IMG/VR virus record: IMGVR_UViG_3300043570_002078
Coordinates: 1 to 44,405 of that record
Reading direction: 5' to 3' (one strand)
Source: a virus
Length of the DNA: 44,405 nucleotides
A program made the position numbers and the translations under genes. Below the pieces are notes generated by a model. That model ran no database searches. It saw only the letters and a program-made list of their open reading frames with translations, and was not told the DNA's origin. Shown one piece after another: positions 3,045-18,630 of this stretch. The first letter of the stretch is position 1; every line of letters starts with the position of its first letter.

Positions 3045-4088
3045 ATGAAGACTTCTAGATTTATCGTAGCAGCAATCGCTGCATCTTTACTCATCGCCCA
3101 ACCAGCCCATGCAGATCAAATTACGGGTTCTGGTTCATCATTCATTGCTAACTTTATCAATGAATGCCGTGTTCAATATGGAAAAGCCTCTGGACATAAC
3201 ATAGAATACACACCACTAGGTTCAGGTGCAGGGATTAATATGTTTATGCAAGGCACTGTTGATTTTGCAGCAAGTGATGTGGCTGCTTCACAAATTAATA
3301 AAACAAAAGAGTTTGTATACGTTCCACTAGTAGCAGGACCTATTGCAATTGCATACAAAATTGATGGGTACAAAGGAAAGATTCAATTAAAGAAACAAAC
3401 TTTGGCTAAAATTTTTGCAGGGGACATAACAAACTGGAATGATCCTCAAATAGTTAAAGATAATACTATAAAGAAAGTAAAGCCAAAACTACCAAACCTT
3501 CAAATCATGGTTTTCTATCGTGCAGATAGTTCAGGAACAACTCAAGTAGTAACAGAATACCTAAGTGCTATTGCTCCATCAATCTGGATAAAGGCTCCAA
3601 ACAAATCTTTTACACAGGTATTTCCAAAAAGCCAACTACCTATGGGAACTTTTAGTTCTGTTGCTGGAACTAATCTTATGGCATCTCAGGTTGCACGTAC
3701 AAATGGTGCATTAGGCTATATGGAATCTTCTTATGCTACAAATCAAAATCTTGCTAAAGCATCTATTGAAAATGGTGCTGGTGTATTTATGCAGCCTACA
3801 TCTGAGGCAGCATCTGCATTCCTGAGTGACTTTGAACCTGAAGGAAATGGCATCATTGTTCCAAACTATAACAACAAGGATAAAAAGGCTTACAACATAT
3901 CCTCGTTCTCTTATGGCCTAGCACCAACGCAAGCAAGTGATAAGGCAAACATCATTAAAGGATTCTTTAAGTATACTGCCACTTCATGCGCTAGTCTTTC
4001 AGCCAAAAAATTGGAATACTCTCCACTTACAGGATCAGCATTGGCTATAGCAAAAGCACAGATTGCACTAATTGGATCTAAGTCCTAA
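3045..4088 (+). CDS. pstS: Phosphate-binding protein PstS-like, secreted
   Basis: 347 residues. The first 23 are a Sec signal peptide ending AHA. Mature-protein motifs match the phosphate ABC-transporter binding protein: GSGSSFIANF, LGSGAGINMF, FAASDVAAS and YRADSSGTTQVVTEYL, which supply phosphate-coordinating Ser/Thr/Asp/Arg residues. Viruses of planktonic hosts carry pstS as an auxiliary metabolic gene to keep phosphate coming in during infection. No pstCAB is nearby, so it would dock on the host permease. TATTAT at 3033-3038 lies six bases before the ATG, so the mRNA should be leaderless. The 3' end overlaps the convergent small gene by four bases. Confidence 0.92.
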   Translation: MKTSRFIVAAIAASLLIAQPAHADQITGSGSSFIANFINECRVQYGKASGHNIEYTPLGSGAGINMFMQGTVDFAASDVAASQINKTKEFVYVPLVAGPIAIAYKIDGYKGKIQLKKQTLAKIFAGDITNWNDPQIVKDNTIKKVKPKLPNLQIMVFYRADSSGTTQVVTEYLSAIAPSIWIKAPNKSFTQVFPKSQLPMGTFSSVAGTNLMASQVARTNGALGYMESSYATNQNLAKASIENGAGVFMQPTSEAASAFLSDFEPEGNGIIVPNYNNKDKKAYNISSFSYGLAPTQASDKANIIKGFFKYTATSCASLSAKKLEYSPLTGSALAIAKAQIALIGSKS

Positions 4089-10316: not shown

Positions 10317-10345
10317 ATTTTACAGGATGGGGAACCAAAAGTCAA
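10317..10345 (-). promoter_or_regulatory. Promoter of DUF932-like gene
   Basis: TTGACT (complement of 10340-10345), 17 bp, TAAAAT (complement of 10317-10322). The leader then reads ATCAACAAAACGAAAGG before the ATG, the leader type shared by neighbouring units. Confidence 0.75.
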
Positions 10346-10399
10346 ATCGTAAGACTAGGAGATTATTCTTAAAGTTCTTAAATGGTACATATCAGACAT

Positions 10400-10415
10400 T
10401 GTGACGTAAGTCACT
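10400..10415. promoter_or_regulatory. CRP/GlxR-like operator
   Basis: TGTGACGTAAGTCACT, one mismatch from TGTGA-N6-TCACA, with the central TA typical of the actinobacterial GlxR/CRP consensus. It lies upstream of the DUF932-like promoter. Confidence 0.6.
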
Positions 10416-10431
10416 CGCACATGTGAATATT

Positions 10432-10455
10432 AGCCAGTTTTAAGACTTGGCTAGG
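10432..10455 (-). promoter_or_regulatory. 3' hairpin family, copy 2
   Basis: Leftward: CCT, AGCCA, loop AGTCTTAAAAC, TGGCT, 19 bases past the stop at 10474. The stem differs from copy 1 at two positions but pairing is kept. Confidence 0.7.
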
Positions 10456-11179: not shown

Positions 11180-11208
11180 ATTCTAATCTTAGCAGATAGG
11201 GCTGACAA
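11180..11208 (-). promoter_or_regulatory. Promoter TTGTCA-17-TAGAAT
   Basis: -35 is the complement of 11203-11208 and -10 the complement of 11180-11185. The same pair with the same spacing occurs at 14720-14748 and, with GTTAAT, at 15382-15410. Confidence 0.7.
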
Positions 11209-11239
11209 TAGCCAATCTTAAATGGTACATATCGGACAT

Positions 11240-11255
11240 TGTGAGCAAGATCACA
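11240..11255. promoter_or_regulatory. Perfect CRP-consensus operator
   Basis: TGTGAGCAAGATCACA matches TGTGA-N6-TCACA at all ten fixed positions. The centre lies about 74 bases upstream of the likely start of transcription, a distance suited to activation by a CRP-type regulator. Confidence 0.65.
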
Positions 11256-11275
11256 TTGACATGTGAATTTTTGGT

Positions 11276-11299
11276 AAGCAGTTTTTTTACTTGCTTAGG
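11276..11299 (-). promoter_or_regulatory. 3' hairpin family, copy 3
   Basis: Leftward: CCT, AAGCA, loop AGTAAAAAAAC, TGCTT, 23 bases past the stop at 11322. The outer pair is A-T instead of G-C. Confidence 0.7.
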
Positions 11300-11615: not shown

Positions 11616-11638
11616 TTTATTCCTTAAATTAGTTGGGT

Positions 11639-11662
11639 GAGCAGTTTTTCAACTTGCTCAGG
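11639..11662 (-). promoter_or_regulatory. 3' hairpin family, copy 4
   Basis: Leftward: CCT, GAGCA, loop AGTTGAAAAAC, TGCTC, between the stop at 11700 and the DUF4190-like gene. Confidence 0.7.
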
Positions 11663-12391: not shown

Positions 12392-12420
12392 AGTATAGCA
12401 TTTTTAGGGCTATAACTCAA
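12392..12420 (-). promoter_or_regulatory. Promoter TTGAGT-17-TATACT
   Basis: -35 complement of 12415-12420, -10 complement of 12392-12397. The leader ATCAACAAACGAAAGG follows. Confidence 0.72.
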
Positions 12421-12430
12421 ATCCTAGCGG

Positions 12431-12446
12431 TGTGAGATACACCACA
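12431..12446. promoter_or_regulatory. CRP/GlxR-like operator
   Basis: TGTGAGATACACCACA: one mismatch from the consensus, central TA present. It lies just upstream of the -35 box at 12415. A CGGACA motif follows at 12455. Confidence 0.55.
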
Positions 12447-12462
12447 GGACAATTCGGACATT

Positions 12463-13480: not shown

Positions 13481-13520
13481 TTCCTGGGAGATTCTAGACA
13501 AAACGGACATTCACATGTGA

Positions 13521-14719: not shown

Positions 14720-14748
14720 ATTCTAAGTCTAGCCTAAGCCACTGACAA
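14720..14748 (-). promoter_or_regulatory. Promoter TTGTCA-17-TAGAAT
   Basis: -35 complement of 14743-14748, -10 complement of 14720-14725. The leader contains ATAACAACAACGAAGGG. Confidence 0.72.
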
Positions 14749-14795
14749 ACACCAATCCAAAATGCGGATAAATCGGACATTTCTTAAATTAGTTT

Positions 14796-14811
14796 TGTGA
14801 GATAGCCCACA
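14796..14811. promoter_or_regulatory. CRP/GlxR-like operator
   Basis: TGTGAGATAGCCCACA: one mismatch from the consensus, central TA present. A CGGACA motif lies at 14774. Confidence 0.55.
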
Positions 14812-14815
14812 TAAG

Positions 14816-14836
14816 TTATCCACAAGGTTATCCACA
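14816..14836 (+). other. Pair of DnaA boxes
   Basis: Two perfect TTATCCACA copies at 14816 and 14828, the same 12-bp phase and similar flanks as the pair at 5826/5838. Next to a CRP-like site and CACATGTG. Confidence 0.6.
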
Positions 14837-14886
14837 ATCACATGTGTGCGACACGCCCGAGTGCGTTACATTGAAATATAAGGGTT

Positions 14887-15179: not shown

Positions 15180-15355
15180 CTTGATACCTCCCATTTACTC
15201 CAACGACCTAGACGATCATTATCAAAGTCAATATAGAAGGACTCAATGTTTTGATCACACTCAACGCATATGGTGTATGCAATATCGTTATGAGTAGAGA
15301 TAGCACTCTCTAGGGGTGTGTGCGTATGCACTTTATTTATTGTTAATGTAGTCAT
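15176..15355 (-). CDS. Small phage protein (CVEC...RLGRWSKWEV)
   Basis: 59 residues from the ATG at 15355, preceded by ACGAAAGGTGG. The pattern ICVECDQNIESFYIDFDNDR followed by LGRWSKW is a short actinophage family I have seen often. The CVEC pair may bind zinc. Function unknown. Confidence 0.75.
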   Translation of the reverse strand: MTTLTINKVHTHTPLESAISTHNDIAYTICVECDQNIESFYIDFDNDRLGRWSKWEVSR

Positions 15356-15473
15356 TTTGACCACCTTTCGTTGTTGTTGATATTAACATTTTAGCAGAGA
15401 GCACTGACAATGCCTCCGCCTTGCTTGCTTGGCGAGTAGCGATTACGTGCGCCTTAAAGTCATTTAGGTTCAT
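15333..15473 (-). CDS. Possible small helical protein overlapping a promoter
   Basis: 46 residues: MNLNDFKAHVIATRQASKAE, then ALSVLSAKMLISTTTKGGQN. Its ATG overlaps the stop of the upstream gene (TAATG), which supports it. Its frame also covers the TTGTCA-17-GTTAAT promoter and start of the next gene, which argues for caution. Confidence 0.42.
   Translation of the reverse strand: MNLNDFKAHVIATRQASKAEALSVLSAKMLISTTTKGGQNDYINNK
15382..15410 (-). promoter_or_regulatory. Promoter TTGTCA-17-GTTAAT
   Basis: -35 complement of 15405-15410, -10 complement of 15382-15387, followed by leader ATCAACAACAACGAAAGG and the ATG at 15355. Confidence 0.6.
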
Positions 15474-15643
15474 TACTGATCACACTCGCAAGGCTCATAA
15501 GGGTCAAACTCGCAATAGTAGCAACCTTGCGCCTCGAAATGCTTTTCGCAATAGTGGCGGTATTGGACCTCGTCGCAGTGGGTGAATTGGGCGTAATCGG
15601 TTAAATAGTACCGATTTAGGGGCATTAGGATTAATGTAGTCAT
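15473..15643 (-). CDS. Cys-rich small protein
   Basis: 56 residues with eight Cys/His-type ligands, including HC near 22-23, HYCEKH, CYYCEF and CECD. A likely zinc-binding microprotein. It begins MTTLI, as the gene at 15355 does, and both have the same ribosome-site stretch GAAAGGTGGTCAAAATGACT, so their starts may be duplicated. Confidence 0.6.
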   Translation of the reverse strand: MTTLILMPLNRYYLTDYAQFTHCDEVQYRHYCEKHFEAQGCYYCEFDPYEPCECDQ

Positions 15644-15745
15644 TTTGACCACCTTTCTTGTTGTTATAGTTTTATTCTATCAGGTACCACTGACATTTGC
15701 AGTTGTTATGTCAAGTAATTATCAGACAAATCGGACAACTCTCAA

Positions 15746-15761
15746 TGTGTGTTACATCACA
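15746..15761. promoter_or_regulatory. CRP/GlxR-like operator, left half of hub
   Basis: TGTGTGTTACATCACA: one mismatch, central TA present. Confidence 0.55.
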
Positions 15762-15787
15762 TAGCACAAATCGGACATTTCGGGCGC

Positions 15788-15809
15788 CGACATGTGAATC
15801 GACATGTGA
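15788..15809. repeat. Tandem CGACATGTGA pair
   Basis: Two 10-base copies with a 12-bp period at the centre of the hub. Single ACATGTG copies lie at 9191, 10419, 11259, 13512 and 14840, all between genes. Confidence 0.6.
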
Positions 15810-15833
15810 TGTCCGTTTTGCCCTAGTTTGTTA

Positions 15834-15849
15834 TGTGAGGTACATTACA
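15834..15849. promoter_or_regulatory. CRP/GlxR-like operator, right half of hub
   Basis: TGTGAGGTACATTACA: one mismatch, central TA present; centred about 80 bases upstream of the predicted rightward transcription start. Confidence 0.55.
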
Positions 15850-15885
15850 CTTTTGCAAAATGTCCGGAATCGCCCGATTCTCGAT

Positions 15886-15914
15886 TTGAGAATGTCAGTC
15901 CACTCGTGTATAAT
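15886..15914 (+). promoter_or_regulatory. Rightward promoter TTGAGA-17-TATAAT
   Basis: -35 at 15886-15891, -10 at 15909-15914. It drives the five-gene rightward block that ends at the terminator at 16802. Confidence 0.8.
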
Positions 15915-15963
15915 TCAGGGTATAAGGAAGTTAGGGAAAGTCCCTAAACTAGAAAGGCTCAAA

Positions 15964-16152
15964 ATGAAAATATACCAAGTGTTCGAGAACTACGAGGATG
16001 GCGCAATAGGAACCTTCTCAACAATAAAAAAAGCAGAAGCATTTATCAAAAAAGAAGATGCTAAGCGTTTAGAAAATATATTAAAAAACTTTGGAACTAC
16101 AGAAGGTTTCAATTACAAAATTAACTATATCGAAGAATTCGAGGTAAAATAA
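15964..16152 (+). CDS. Small protein, first of rightward block
   Basis: 62 residues from the ATG at 15964, with AGAAAGG seven bases upstream. It reads MKIYQVFENYEDGAIGTFST, then Lys-rich helices, consistent with a small alpha/beta protein. The open frame extends upstream but across the promoter, so this start is chosen. No family recognised. Confidence 0.7.
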   Translation: MKIYQVFENYEDGAIGTFSTIKKAEAFIKKEDAKRLENILKNFGTTEGFNYKINYIEEFEVK

Positions 16153-17091: not shown

Positions 17092-18630
17092 TTATTTTTG
17101 AATCTTTTCAACCTTAACCACATCACCAAAATCTCCAGATTCAACTACAGTTATTTTCCAATTTAGATATGTAAAACTTTCACCTCGCTCCAATGCTGCA
17201 TCGAATCTATTTTCAGATTGATTGTAATTATCAACTGTGTTTAAAAGTTTGAAACCAAAATCATTTTTTTGCTCTGAGGTATCCACTGCATAAATCAAGG
17301 CACCATTAAAATTCTTAGGTATTTTATAATTATATCCAACTGACCTTTGAGACTCAACAACTATTCCATGTTGCGCATCTATCGGAATAATTACTGCTTT
17401 AATTCCTGAATCTTTTACTGTATTAGGTCGAACCCAAATAGTTTGAGATTCAGAACCAACAAAACAAGCAATTTGTTTATCAGCAACAAACCCCATTAAC
17501 CATTTATCCCAAACAATAAAATCACCTGCTAATCCATGCATATTTCCCCAACCACCCATTCCAATCTCACGCTTTCCTGCTCTCATTCCACCCAATGAAT
17601 CATTTAGGCCAGCAGAATGTCCTATTGCTTCATGAATGGTTATCCAAGGATCGGCAGCAGTGGATGAATCCTGAGTACTTCTTTTTGTTAAAGAAGTTGG
17701 ACCCATAATGTAGATGCCCTTAACCGAACCTTGCGGTGTCGATACGGTTCCCCAATTTAAGCCTGCTGCAAAAAAAGCGTCAACGGGAACTTCTGGAGGA
17801 ACAACTCCAATTATGTAGTCTACGTTGGCAAAATTGATGTCATTTTTTGTTAAGTTTATTAATTCTAATTCTGTATTGTCACCTGTTGAATTTTTGAAGT
17901 CGTAAAAACTCAATTCTTTGGATAATTGATAATATTTAGTCGGAATTCGAATGTCTACTTTAACTTCAACATCGGATGCATTTGTGAGGTAATCAGAGAA
18001 AAATCTAAAGTATTTCTCAAAATCTATGGAAGGATTAGAATTGGTTTTATAATCTGTAAATTGCATTGGAATTACTTGAATTACAGCAGATTTTGGAAAA
18101 TTTTGAAAATCTTTATATCTAGGAAATCCCGTCCATCGAACGCCTGGTTGTATAGGATTATTTTTTAATTTACATGAATCAATATTTGAAATTGAATTTG
18201 TTAAATCGGTTTTTGGTTTATCTTTGATTGTGAATGGGACAAATCGATATGATCTTGCACATTGAAGATTTTGTAATGCCCAGATTTCAACCTTCGCCCA
18301 TTCTTTTGGAACTTTAGGATCGGCGTCACAGGATCTAACAAAATTGTTTGATATTTCCTTTGGTATGTAAATATATTTTTGGGTTTTCTTGTCGCATTTT
18401 AACCAATCAGTAATCTGAGACCCTTTTGGATACCCTTTAACTGTATTTGCTACCGCAGGGTCACAACTATCTCCTTCATCGATCCATGCTTTTTTGACAA
18501 TTACTTTTTTGGGTGTATTTTTTTTAATAATAGGTTTTTTGGTAGCCAAAATAGGAAAATTTGCCTGGGATGGAACAGCAGAAACAAATAAAAATGAAAT
18601 AGACAACAATAAAACTTTTAATTTAAACAC
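17092..18630 (-). CDS. Secreted zincin-like metalloprotease (HExxGH)
   Basis: 512 residues. Residues 1-23 are a signal peptide ending SQA. Residues 30-135 are a Lys-rich linker plus a Cys-containing domain (C56, C79, C101, C124). WITIHEAIGHSAGLND (about 329-344) gives HEAIGH: an HExxGH spacing rather than the usual HExxH. GMGGWGNMHGLAGDF and a WDKW motif follow, as in M6-like secreted proteases. The C-terminus is beta-rich. GTG start with GAGGGGAT upstream. It overlaps the end of the upstream gene by 13 bases. Host-surface or secreted substrate is likely; a virion part is possible. Confidence 0.72.
   Translation of the reverse strand: MFKLKVLLLSISFLFVSAVPSQANFPILATKKPIIKKNTPKKVIVKKAWIDEGDSCDPAVANTVKGYPKGSQITDWLKCDKKTQKYIYIPKEISNNFVRSCDADPKVPKEWAKVEIWALQNLQCARSYRFVPFTIKDKPKTDLTNSISNIDSCKLKNNPIQPGVRWTGFPRYKDFQNFPKSAVIQVIPMQFTDYKTNSNPSIDFEKYFRFFSDYLTNASDVEVKVDIRIPTKYYQLSKELSFYDFKNSTGDNTELELINLTKNDINFANVDYIIGVVPPEVPVDAFFAAGLNWGTVSTPQGSVKGIYIMGPTSLTKRSTQDSSTAADPWITIHEAIGHSAGLNDSLGGMRAGKREIGMGGWGNMHGLAGDFIVWDKWLMGFVADKQIACFVGSESQTIWVRPNTVKDSGIKAVIIPIDAQHGIVVESQRSVGYNYKIPKNFNGALIYAVDTSEQKNDFGFKLLNTVDNYNQSENRFDAALERGESFTYLNWKITVVESGDFGDVVKVEKIQK

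Follow-up and report, generated by a model that had tools for sequence, protein, structure and literature searches.

The DNA between positions 15644 and 15963 probably holds the divergent early promoters of a large freshwater actinophage, and it is likely, if well short of certain, that this virus co-opts a CRP/GlxR-type regulator of its host to activate its presumed early genes, atop control that is specific to the virus. The region belongs to a viral record of 44,405 bases (IMGVR_UViG_3300043570_002078), which was analysed whole and is called the window here, and it divides a leftward from a rightward set of small genes. An earlier note had proposed that sites for a host CRP/GlxR-type protein form part of a shared promoter circuit, a proposal that conservation in relatives, enrichment and phasing strongly support. 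The modules, their enrichment and conservation, the fixed spacings, the helical phasing and a lineage-specific word can be read in the DNA itself; from these we infer the proteins, start sites, activation, timing and host.

In the proposed mechanism, each arm of the region would be a promoter for the main RNA polymerase of the host (TGTCAG-N10-extended -10), with TGTCCGATTTG boxes and a CRP/GlxR site in front of it. The cAMP-bound CRP/GlxR of the host would bind TGTGA-N6-TCACA upstream of the promoters and recruit RNA polymerase (class I activation), and the virus would thereby switch on small early genes in both directions via a global activator of its host. The slot that holds ACATGTG would bind a virus-encoded factor, its site having diverged between virus lineages.

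The divergent hub and its sister units

The earlier note had read the order TCGGACA, CRP-like site, TCGGACA, two CGACATGTGA words, TGTCCG, CRP-like site, TGTCCG, and this succession of putative sites is indeed found at 15731-15866. The near mirror image is present as well, but there is no sign that the symmetry itself matters: the order arises because two promoters of the same design stand back to back, and needs no further assumption. First-order shuffling of 15644-15963 (5000 rounds) gave two CRP-like sites (at most one mismatch) in 2 rounds, four copies of CGGACA/TGTCCG in 0 and two of ACATGTG in 10.

The first leftward small gene (15473-15643, minus strand) is an open reading frame of 56 aa starting from an ATG at 15643, with the RBS-like AGAAAGGT directly upstream and orthologues in three relatives (L125, L128 and G011). 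Its predicted core promoter (15674-15695, minus strand) reads TGTCAG-TGGTACCTGA-TAGAAT (15695-15674), that is, TGTCAG (15690-15695), N10 and the extended -10 TGA-TAGAAT (15674-15679), in keeping with the TGTCAG-N10-TATAAT spacing of the relatives; the start site would lie near 15667. Upstream of it, TCGGACA at 15731-15737 (plus strand), a word enriched in the intergenic DNA of the relatives, reads TGTCCGA towards the leftward promoter. It is followed by the predicted CRP/GlxR-like site TGTGTGTTACATCACA (15746-15761), by the distal TCGGACA of this arm (15771-15777, plus strand) and by the central, virus-specific slot (15788-15809) with its two words (15788-15797 and 15800-15809). The right arm has a distal TGTCCG (15810-15815, plus strand), the predicted CRP/GlxR-like site TGTGAGGTACATTACA (15834-15849) and a proximal TGTCCG (15861-15866, plus strand), the last placed 32 bp upstream of TGTCAG, which is the commonest spacing among the relatives. 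Judging by its spacing, the rightward core promoter (15886-15914, plus strand) consists of a -35 (TTGAGA), TGTCAG (15893-15898), N10 and TATAAT (15909-15914), and reads TGTCAG-TCCACTCGTG-TATAAT (15893-15914); the first rightward small gene (15964-16152, plus strand) is an open reading frame of 62 aa with no match in PHROGs.

Two other features were observed beside the hub. The starts and leaders of two neighbouring leftward small genes form a duplicated block, 84% identical, at 15343-15409 and 15631-15695. Next to the rightward operon, a 512-aa gene (17092-18630) with no family match looks like a recent insertion; only short fragments of it occur in L125, G011 and G001, and none in L130.

The modules were also said to recur before other units, all of them on the minus strand. 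This holds in full at 14.8 and 11.2 kb. The second full unit (14728-14858) has a promoter at 14728-14747, TCGGACA at 14773-14779, a CRP-like site at 14796-14811, DnaA boxes at 14816-14824 and 14828-14836, CACATGTG at 14839-14846 and CGACACGCC at 14849-14857, and the third (11181-11265) combines a promoter (11181-11208) with TCGGACA (11232-11238), the exact CRP site TGTGAGCAAGATCACA (11240-11255) and ACATGTG (11259-11265). The units at 12.4 and 10.4 kb, on the other hand, are incomplete. The fourth (12392-12460) has a TTGAGT-17-TATACT promoter, a CRP-like site (12431-12446) and TCGGACA (12454-12460) without ACATGTG; the fifth (10317-10425), the TTGACT-17-TAAAAT promoter of a DUF932 gene, has a CRP-like site (10400-10415) and ACATGTG (as CACATGTG, 10418-10425), with TCAGACA in place of TCGGACA. 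A unit at 13.5 kb that the earlier note did not list (13504-13519) has CGGACA and then ACATGTG (again CACATGTG) without a CRP site, and it is here that the slot word differs most clearly between close relatives. That one circuit controls most small genes of the window is plausible, but the modules stand on only five or six units.

CRP-like sites number 6 in the interval 8.9-16.4 kb, against 0.28 expected (at most 3 among 500 shuffles), and 7 against 2.2 over the whole window. The window-wide counts of ACATGTG (12 versus 7.3 expected) and of CRP sites at two mismatches (21 versus 30) are weak, so the case rests on exact and one-mismatch sites and on the relatives.

Promoter grammar across the clade

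The comparison set comprised 56 non-redundant loci, the window and 55 relatives, with 0.91 Mb of DNA, of which 0.23 Mb was intergenic as set by a purpose-written gene caller whose calls are approximate; expected counts came from first-order shuffles. In this intergenic DNA, exact TGTGA-N6-TCACA occurs 166 times against 0.2 expected, TCGGACA 176 times (12.6 expected), the DnaA box TTATCCACA 125 times (2.6) and TGTCAGTG 87 times (4.3), with ACATGTG at only 43 (22.5). At least one exact CRP site is present in 53 of the 56 loci. At the hub itself, relatives keep the CRP and TCGGACA boxes while other DNA diverges. Two members of the three-motif set of the earlier note, CRP and TCGGACA, are thus found clade-wide and persist at equal positions in relatives; the third, ACATGTG, is limited to the window virus and its nearest relative and does not persist. 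By its recurrence TCGGACA, whose opposite-strand form TGTCCG extends to TGTCCGATTTG, is a second clade-wide module.

The core-promoter signal TGTCAG-N10-TATAAT had been overlooked, as had the DnaA-box and GGCGTGTCG modules. An unbiased 8-mer scan gave GGCGTGTC (198 versus 2.3 expected), along with the RBS AGAAAGGA and a hairpin word. TGTCAG stands exactly 10 bp upstream of the extended -10: in the relatives the spacing from TGTCAG to TATAAT is 16 in 58 cases, and any other spacing occurs at most twice. The TG of the extended -10 emerges unforced in 80-84% of 182 non-redundant promoters, and the start of TGTCCG lies preferentially 32 bp (also 23 or about 40) upstream of TGTCAG. TGTCCGA and TGTCAG-N10-TATAAT show no enrichment in the 0.8 Mb searched of one candidate host genome; that this host has regulators for the two elements is therefore unlikely. 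A viral sigma factor was also considered and rejected, as the 11 records searched have no Sigma70_r2 and only sub-threshold, sigma-4-like helix-turn-helix (HTH) proteins of 47-66 aa. These small proteins, which score weakly for the HTH of sigma region 4 in G004, G005, G006, G008 and G009 and of which two score weakly as a Crp HTH too, are candidates for the TGTCAG or TGTCCG factor.

Several other elements recur in this clade. The most over-represented viral intergenic word is GGCGTGTCG/CGACACGCC (relatives L125-L204; window 14849-14857); the 0.8 Mb of the candidate host genome holds only two copies, both in intergenic DNA. The first stands 260 bp before an rpsL-like gene, the second 121 bp before a small gene. 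Tandem DnaA boxes spaced 11-12 bp stand just upstream of CRP sites (window 14816-14836; many relatives), and some relatives have them at more than one place in a locus; DnaA-dependent transcription or titration is possible. An RNA hairpin marks gene junctions in 42 of the 56 loci (window 10431-10453, 11275-11297 and 11638-11660, minus strand), with 85 intergenic copies against about 5 in whole-locus shuffles. The hairpin has a conserved loop but no T-run, and its stems change compensatorily (for example TGAGCA-AGTTGAAAAAC-TGCTCA, TAAGCA...TGCTTA, TAGCCA...TGGCTA). In the window, where Rfam matched only a tRNA, it reached the gathering score of no family. The window also encodes, at 3045-4088, a PstS-like phosphate-binding protein (PBP_like_2, E 5e-41), a gene of the phosphate-uptake type in a virus.

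The protein at the CRP-like sites

What binds the palindrome? WhiB, a hallmark of actinophages (PMC10202952), is encoded by 11 of the 15 virus records examined, which points to actinobacterial hosts, and it is present in all 10 relatives of 104-123 kb. The nearest isolate matches of the capsid gene of the window are large Streptomyces phages (about 42%), and its gp88 gene is best matched in mycobacteriophages (59%); a megablast of window positions 10-20 kb against phage records gave zero matches. The plausible host order is probably the freshwater Nanopelagicales, to judge from GC and from genomes of 1.2-2.2 Mb. A 4.7-kb contig of one relative, the single contig behind the host assignment, sits in an actinobacterial MAG; other MAG matches above 65% identity fall in bins of unrelated phyla, so that binning is unreliable. 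A marker gene searched in 296 genomes of the candidate order was found in one MAG and was missing from 295, and a tRNA-Asp comparison gave no host signal. In the order so presumed, 39 of 41 genomes have a Crp-size regulator that binds cNMP (the MAG with the relative contig has no cNMP-binding match itself), and the regulator adjoins an nth-like gene at both loci read. One such protein, alignable over its full length with M. tuberculosis CRP (E 1.6e-78), carries the identical recognition helix VGASRETVNKALADFA; its match to C. glutamicum-type regulators is almost as good. On these alignments, the plausible host group appears to hold a fitting CRP/GlxR regulator.

A regulator encoded by the virus might bind TGTGA-N6-TCACA instead of host CRP. 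The presumed host order has hardly any exact sites (they occur in 5 of its 40 other genomes), and one candidate host genome (0.8 Mb) has none, its intergenic two-mismatch sites being only 2.3-fold enriched; the weak scores of the 47-66 aa proteins in 5 of 11 records lean the same way. Such a protein is nevertheless unlikely, since none of the 15 virus records has a Crp-type HTH (HTH_Crp) over the cut-off, a result on which a viral Crp was rejected, the central bases of the viral sites lean to T-A as those of the GlxR motif do, and the orthologue in the host order has the matching recognition helix.

Given how seldom exact sites occur in host genomes, those of the viruses may be unusually strong; consensus-improving mutations are known to strengthen a GlxR site at ldhA (PMC7999487). 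Could the sites then be mainly decoys, which on a replicating viral genome would soak up host CRP/GlxR and shut its regulon without viral activation? It would suit this reading that the viral sites match the consensus better than those of the presumed host, and that there are several exact sites per virus, but a decoy role is quite improbable: a full-length record has only 1-8 exact sites, and decoys need no fixed place, yet the sites tend to stand 80-140 bp upstream of a gene start (64%, versus 13% of random positions) and in helical phase with the -10. Exact sites inside called genes make up 78 of 244, and 51 of the 78 lie within 200 bp of a downstream start.

The phasing was measured on 67 promoters thinned to <60% mutual identity, with the -10 box taken as -12 to -7; orthologous promoters are not independent, and the thinning was by sequence similarity, with no tree used. 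Site centres cluster at -54, -64.5, -75, -85.5 and -96, a helical comb with a Rayleigh R of 0.62 at 10.5 bp, the best of all periods tested, and this value was reached by 0 of 20,000 jittered sets; exact sites were also looked at by themselves and agree with this phasing. In E. coli, class I CRP sites are centred at -61.5, -71.5, -82.5 and -92.5. By position, the comb is a class I activation pattern, offset by 2-3 bp from E. coli, an offset that unmapped start sites can explain; the sites of window and clade match TGTGA-N6-TCACA, and those of the clade stand upstream of the -35 in helical register. In the window, where distances were counted by hand, the site of the left arm (centre about -86.5 of the leftward promoter) and those at 14.8 kb (about -84.5), 12.4 kb (about -53.5) and 10.4 kb (about -97.5) fall within about 1.5 bp of the comb. 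The 11.2-kb site is off it at -68.5 if TAAGAT is the -10, and fits only with the downstream hexamer TAGAAT in that role. The site of the right arm, centred about -79.5 of the rightward promoter, is out of register, about 4-5 bp off the main comb, which for the hub, the subject of this analysis, counts as a genuine weakness.

Host CRP might also repress these promoters, so that early genes stay silent up to a change in cAMP or CRP, as GlxR can at some promoters and as sites flanking both arms might suggest; this is less probable still, since the sites are found upstream of -50, where they leave the -35 and -10 uncovered, and in the phase of a class I activator. Least probable of all is a replication origin or partition site in place of a promoter region: enriched DnaA boxes (125 versus 2.6), often paired 11-12 bp apart, one pair beside the 14.8-kb unit and a box inside the hub of L127 would suit it, but box clusters are present at several places in some loci and nowhere in others, largely in promoter context, and the window hub has no exact box. 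Activation by host CRP/GlxR is the preferred reading.

The swapped slot and known systems

Next to this putative host-dependent module, the ACATGTG slot suggests a fast-evolving operator specific to each virus. The CGACATGTGA words of the hub are kept in L125, the nearest relative, and absent from L127, L128, L129, L130 and L057, where GC-rich words or DnaA boxes fill the slot. Close relatives have nearly identical flanks (about 90% around the swapped slot) at the orthologous 13.5-kb promoter and differ in the word alone, which is TCACATGTGA in the window and L125, GCCCAGGGGCC in L127 and L129, and GCCCATGGGC in L128 and L130; more distant relatives have CCCGCGGG (L133) and GGGCCCGGGG (L136), and TGTCCGATTTG or TGTCCGTTTTG is retained there in about 20 lineages. 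Words that replace ACATGTG at orthologous promoters with near-identical flanks include CCCATGGG, CCCAGGGG and CCCGCGGG. The words are often, not always, palindromic, and one virus tends to use one word before several promoters (GGCGCGCC in L180, TTTCGAA in L162, TTTCCGG in L137, TTGCGCA in L176, CTCGGGA in L151). L129 has several CCC-NN-GGG variants, so some lineages follow a looser rule. When intergenic regions were permuted among viruses to test for words private to one virus, 12 of 56 loci exceeded all 60 shuffles and 14 had p<=1/60, with about 1 expected, an approximate count in that some top words are terminators. In the window itself the test picked the terminator word CGAAGGG, and ACATGTG led only the 8-mer ranking.

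A virus-specific operator code, with its own word for each lineage, in the same place before several promoters and changed in concert genome-wide, is a tentative reading of these patterns, and is what would be expected if a viral DNA-binding protein and its sites co-evolve rapidly. The gain from such co-evolution might be, for instance, that competing relatives are shut out or disregarded, a suggestion just as tentative. A comparison of window proteins with G001, G011, L125, L128 and L130 gave no clear candidate for the cognate gene. In known systems, the stoperators of cluster A mycobacteriophages are likewise repeated short sites that vary between related viruses, tracking an evolving repressor; they differ in being 13-bp asymmetric sites, 20-30 per genome and mostly off promoters (PMC6550527), whereas the words here are short, often palindromic and set in one promoter slot.

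In T4 middle promoters, a MotA box joins an extended -10. The likeness is an element set a fixed distance from the extended -10, where it takes the place of the -35 or adds to it; here, by contrast, 10 bp separate TGTCAG from the -10, a -35 is often retained, and relatives encode WhiB, of a sigma-A-binding family. The cyanophages S-PM2d and P-SSM2 have promoters with host Pho boxes, some bound by host PhoB (PMC10976474), and thus also place sites for a global host regulator upstream of genes of a lytic virus. Theirs serve a limited gene set under phosphate stress, whereas the sites here are CRP-type, for another regulator, and stand before many early units across the clade at fixed helical spacing. 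The GlxR/CRP regulons of Corynebacterium and Mycobacterium share the consensus TGTGA-N6-TCACA, an actinobacterial regulator and the ability of GlxR to activate (PMC7999487); those are cellular, whereas the viral sites are nearer consensus than those of the presumed host, and they stand together with boxes that show no enrichment there. A design shared with Wakanda and Coruscant (Stanwilliamsviridae) and with the mycobacteriophage MadMarie was ruled out, as all three lack an exact CRP site. The open-licence literature yielded no account of actinophage promoters with CRP sites, nor a description of a CRP module in helical register together with TGTCAG and a swapped slot.

If host CRP/GlxR does activate these promoters, freshwater actinophages would wire their early genes to a cAMP-responsive global regulator of the host, and infection would be tied to the carbon and energy state of the cell. 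The clade also yields a readable promoter grammar for viruses without genetics, and the swapped slot can serve as a natural experiment on changes in the DNA specificity of viral regulators.
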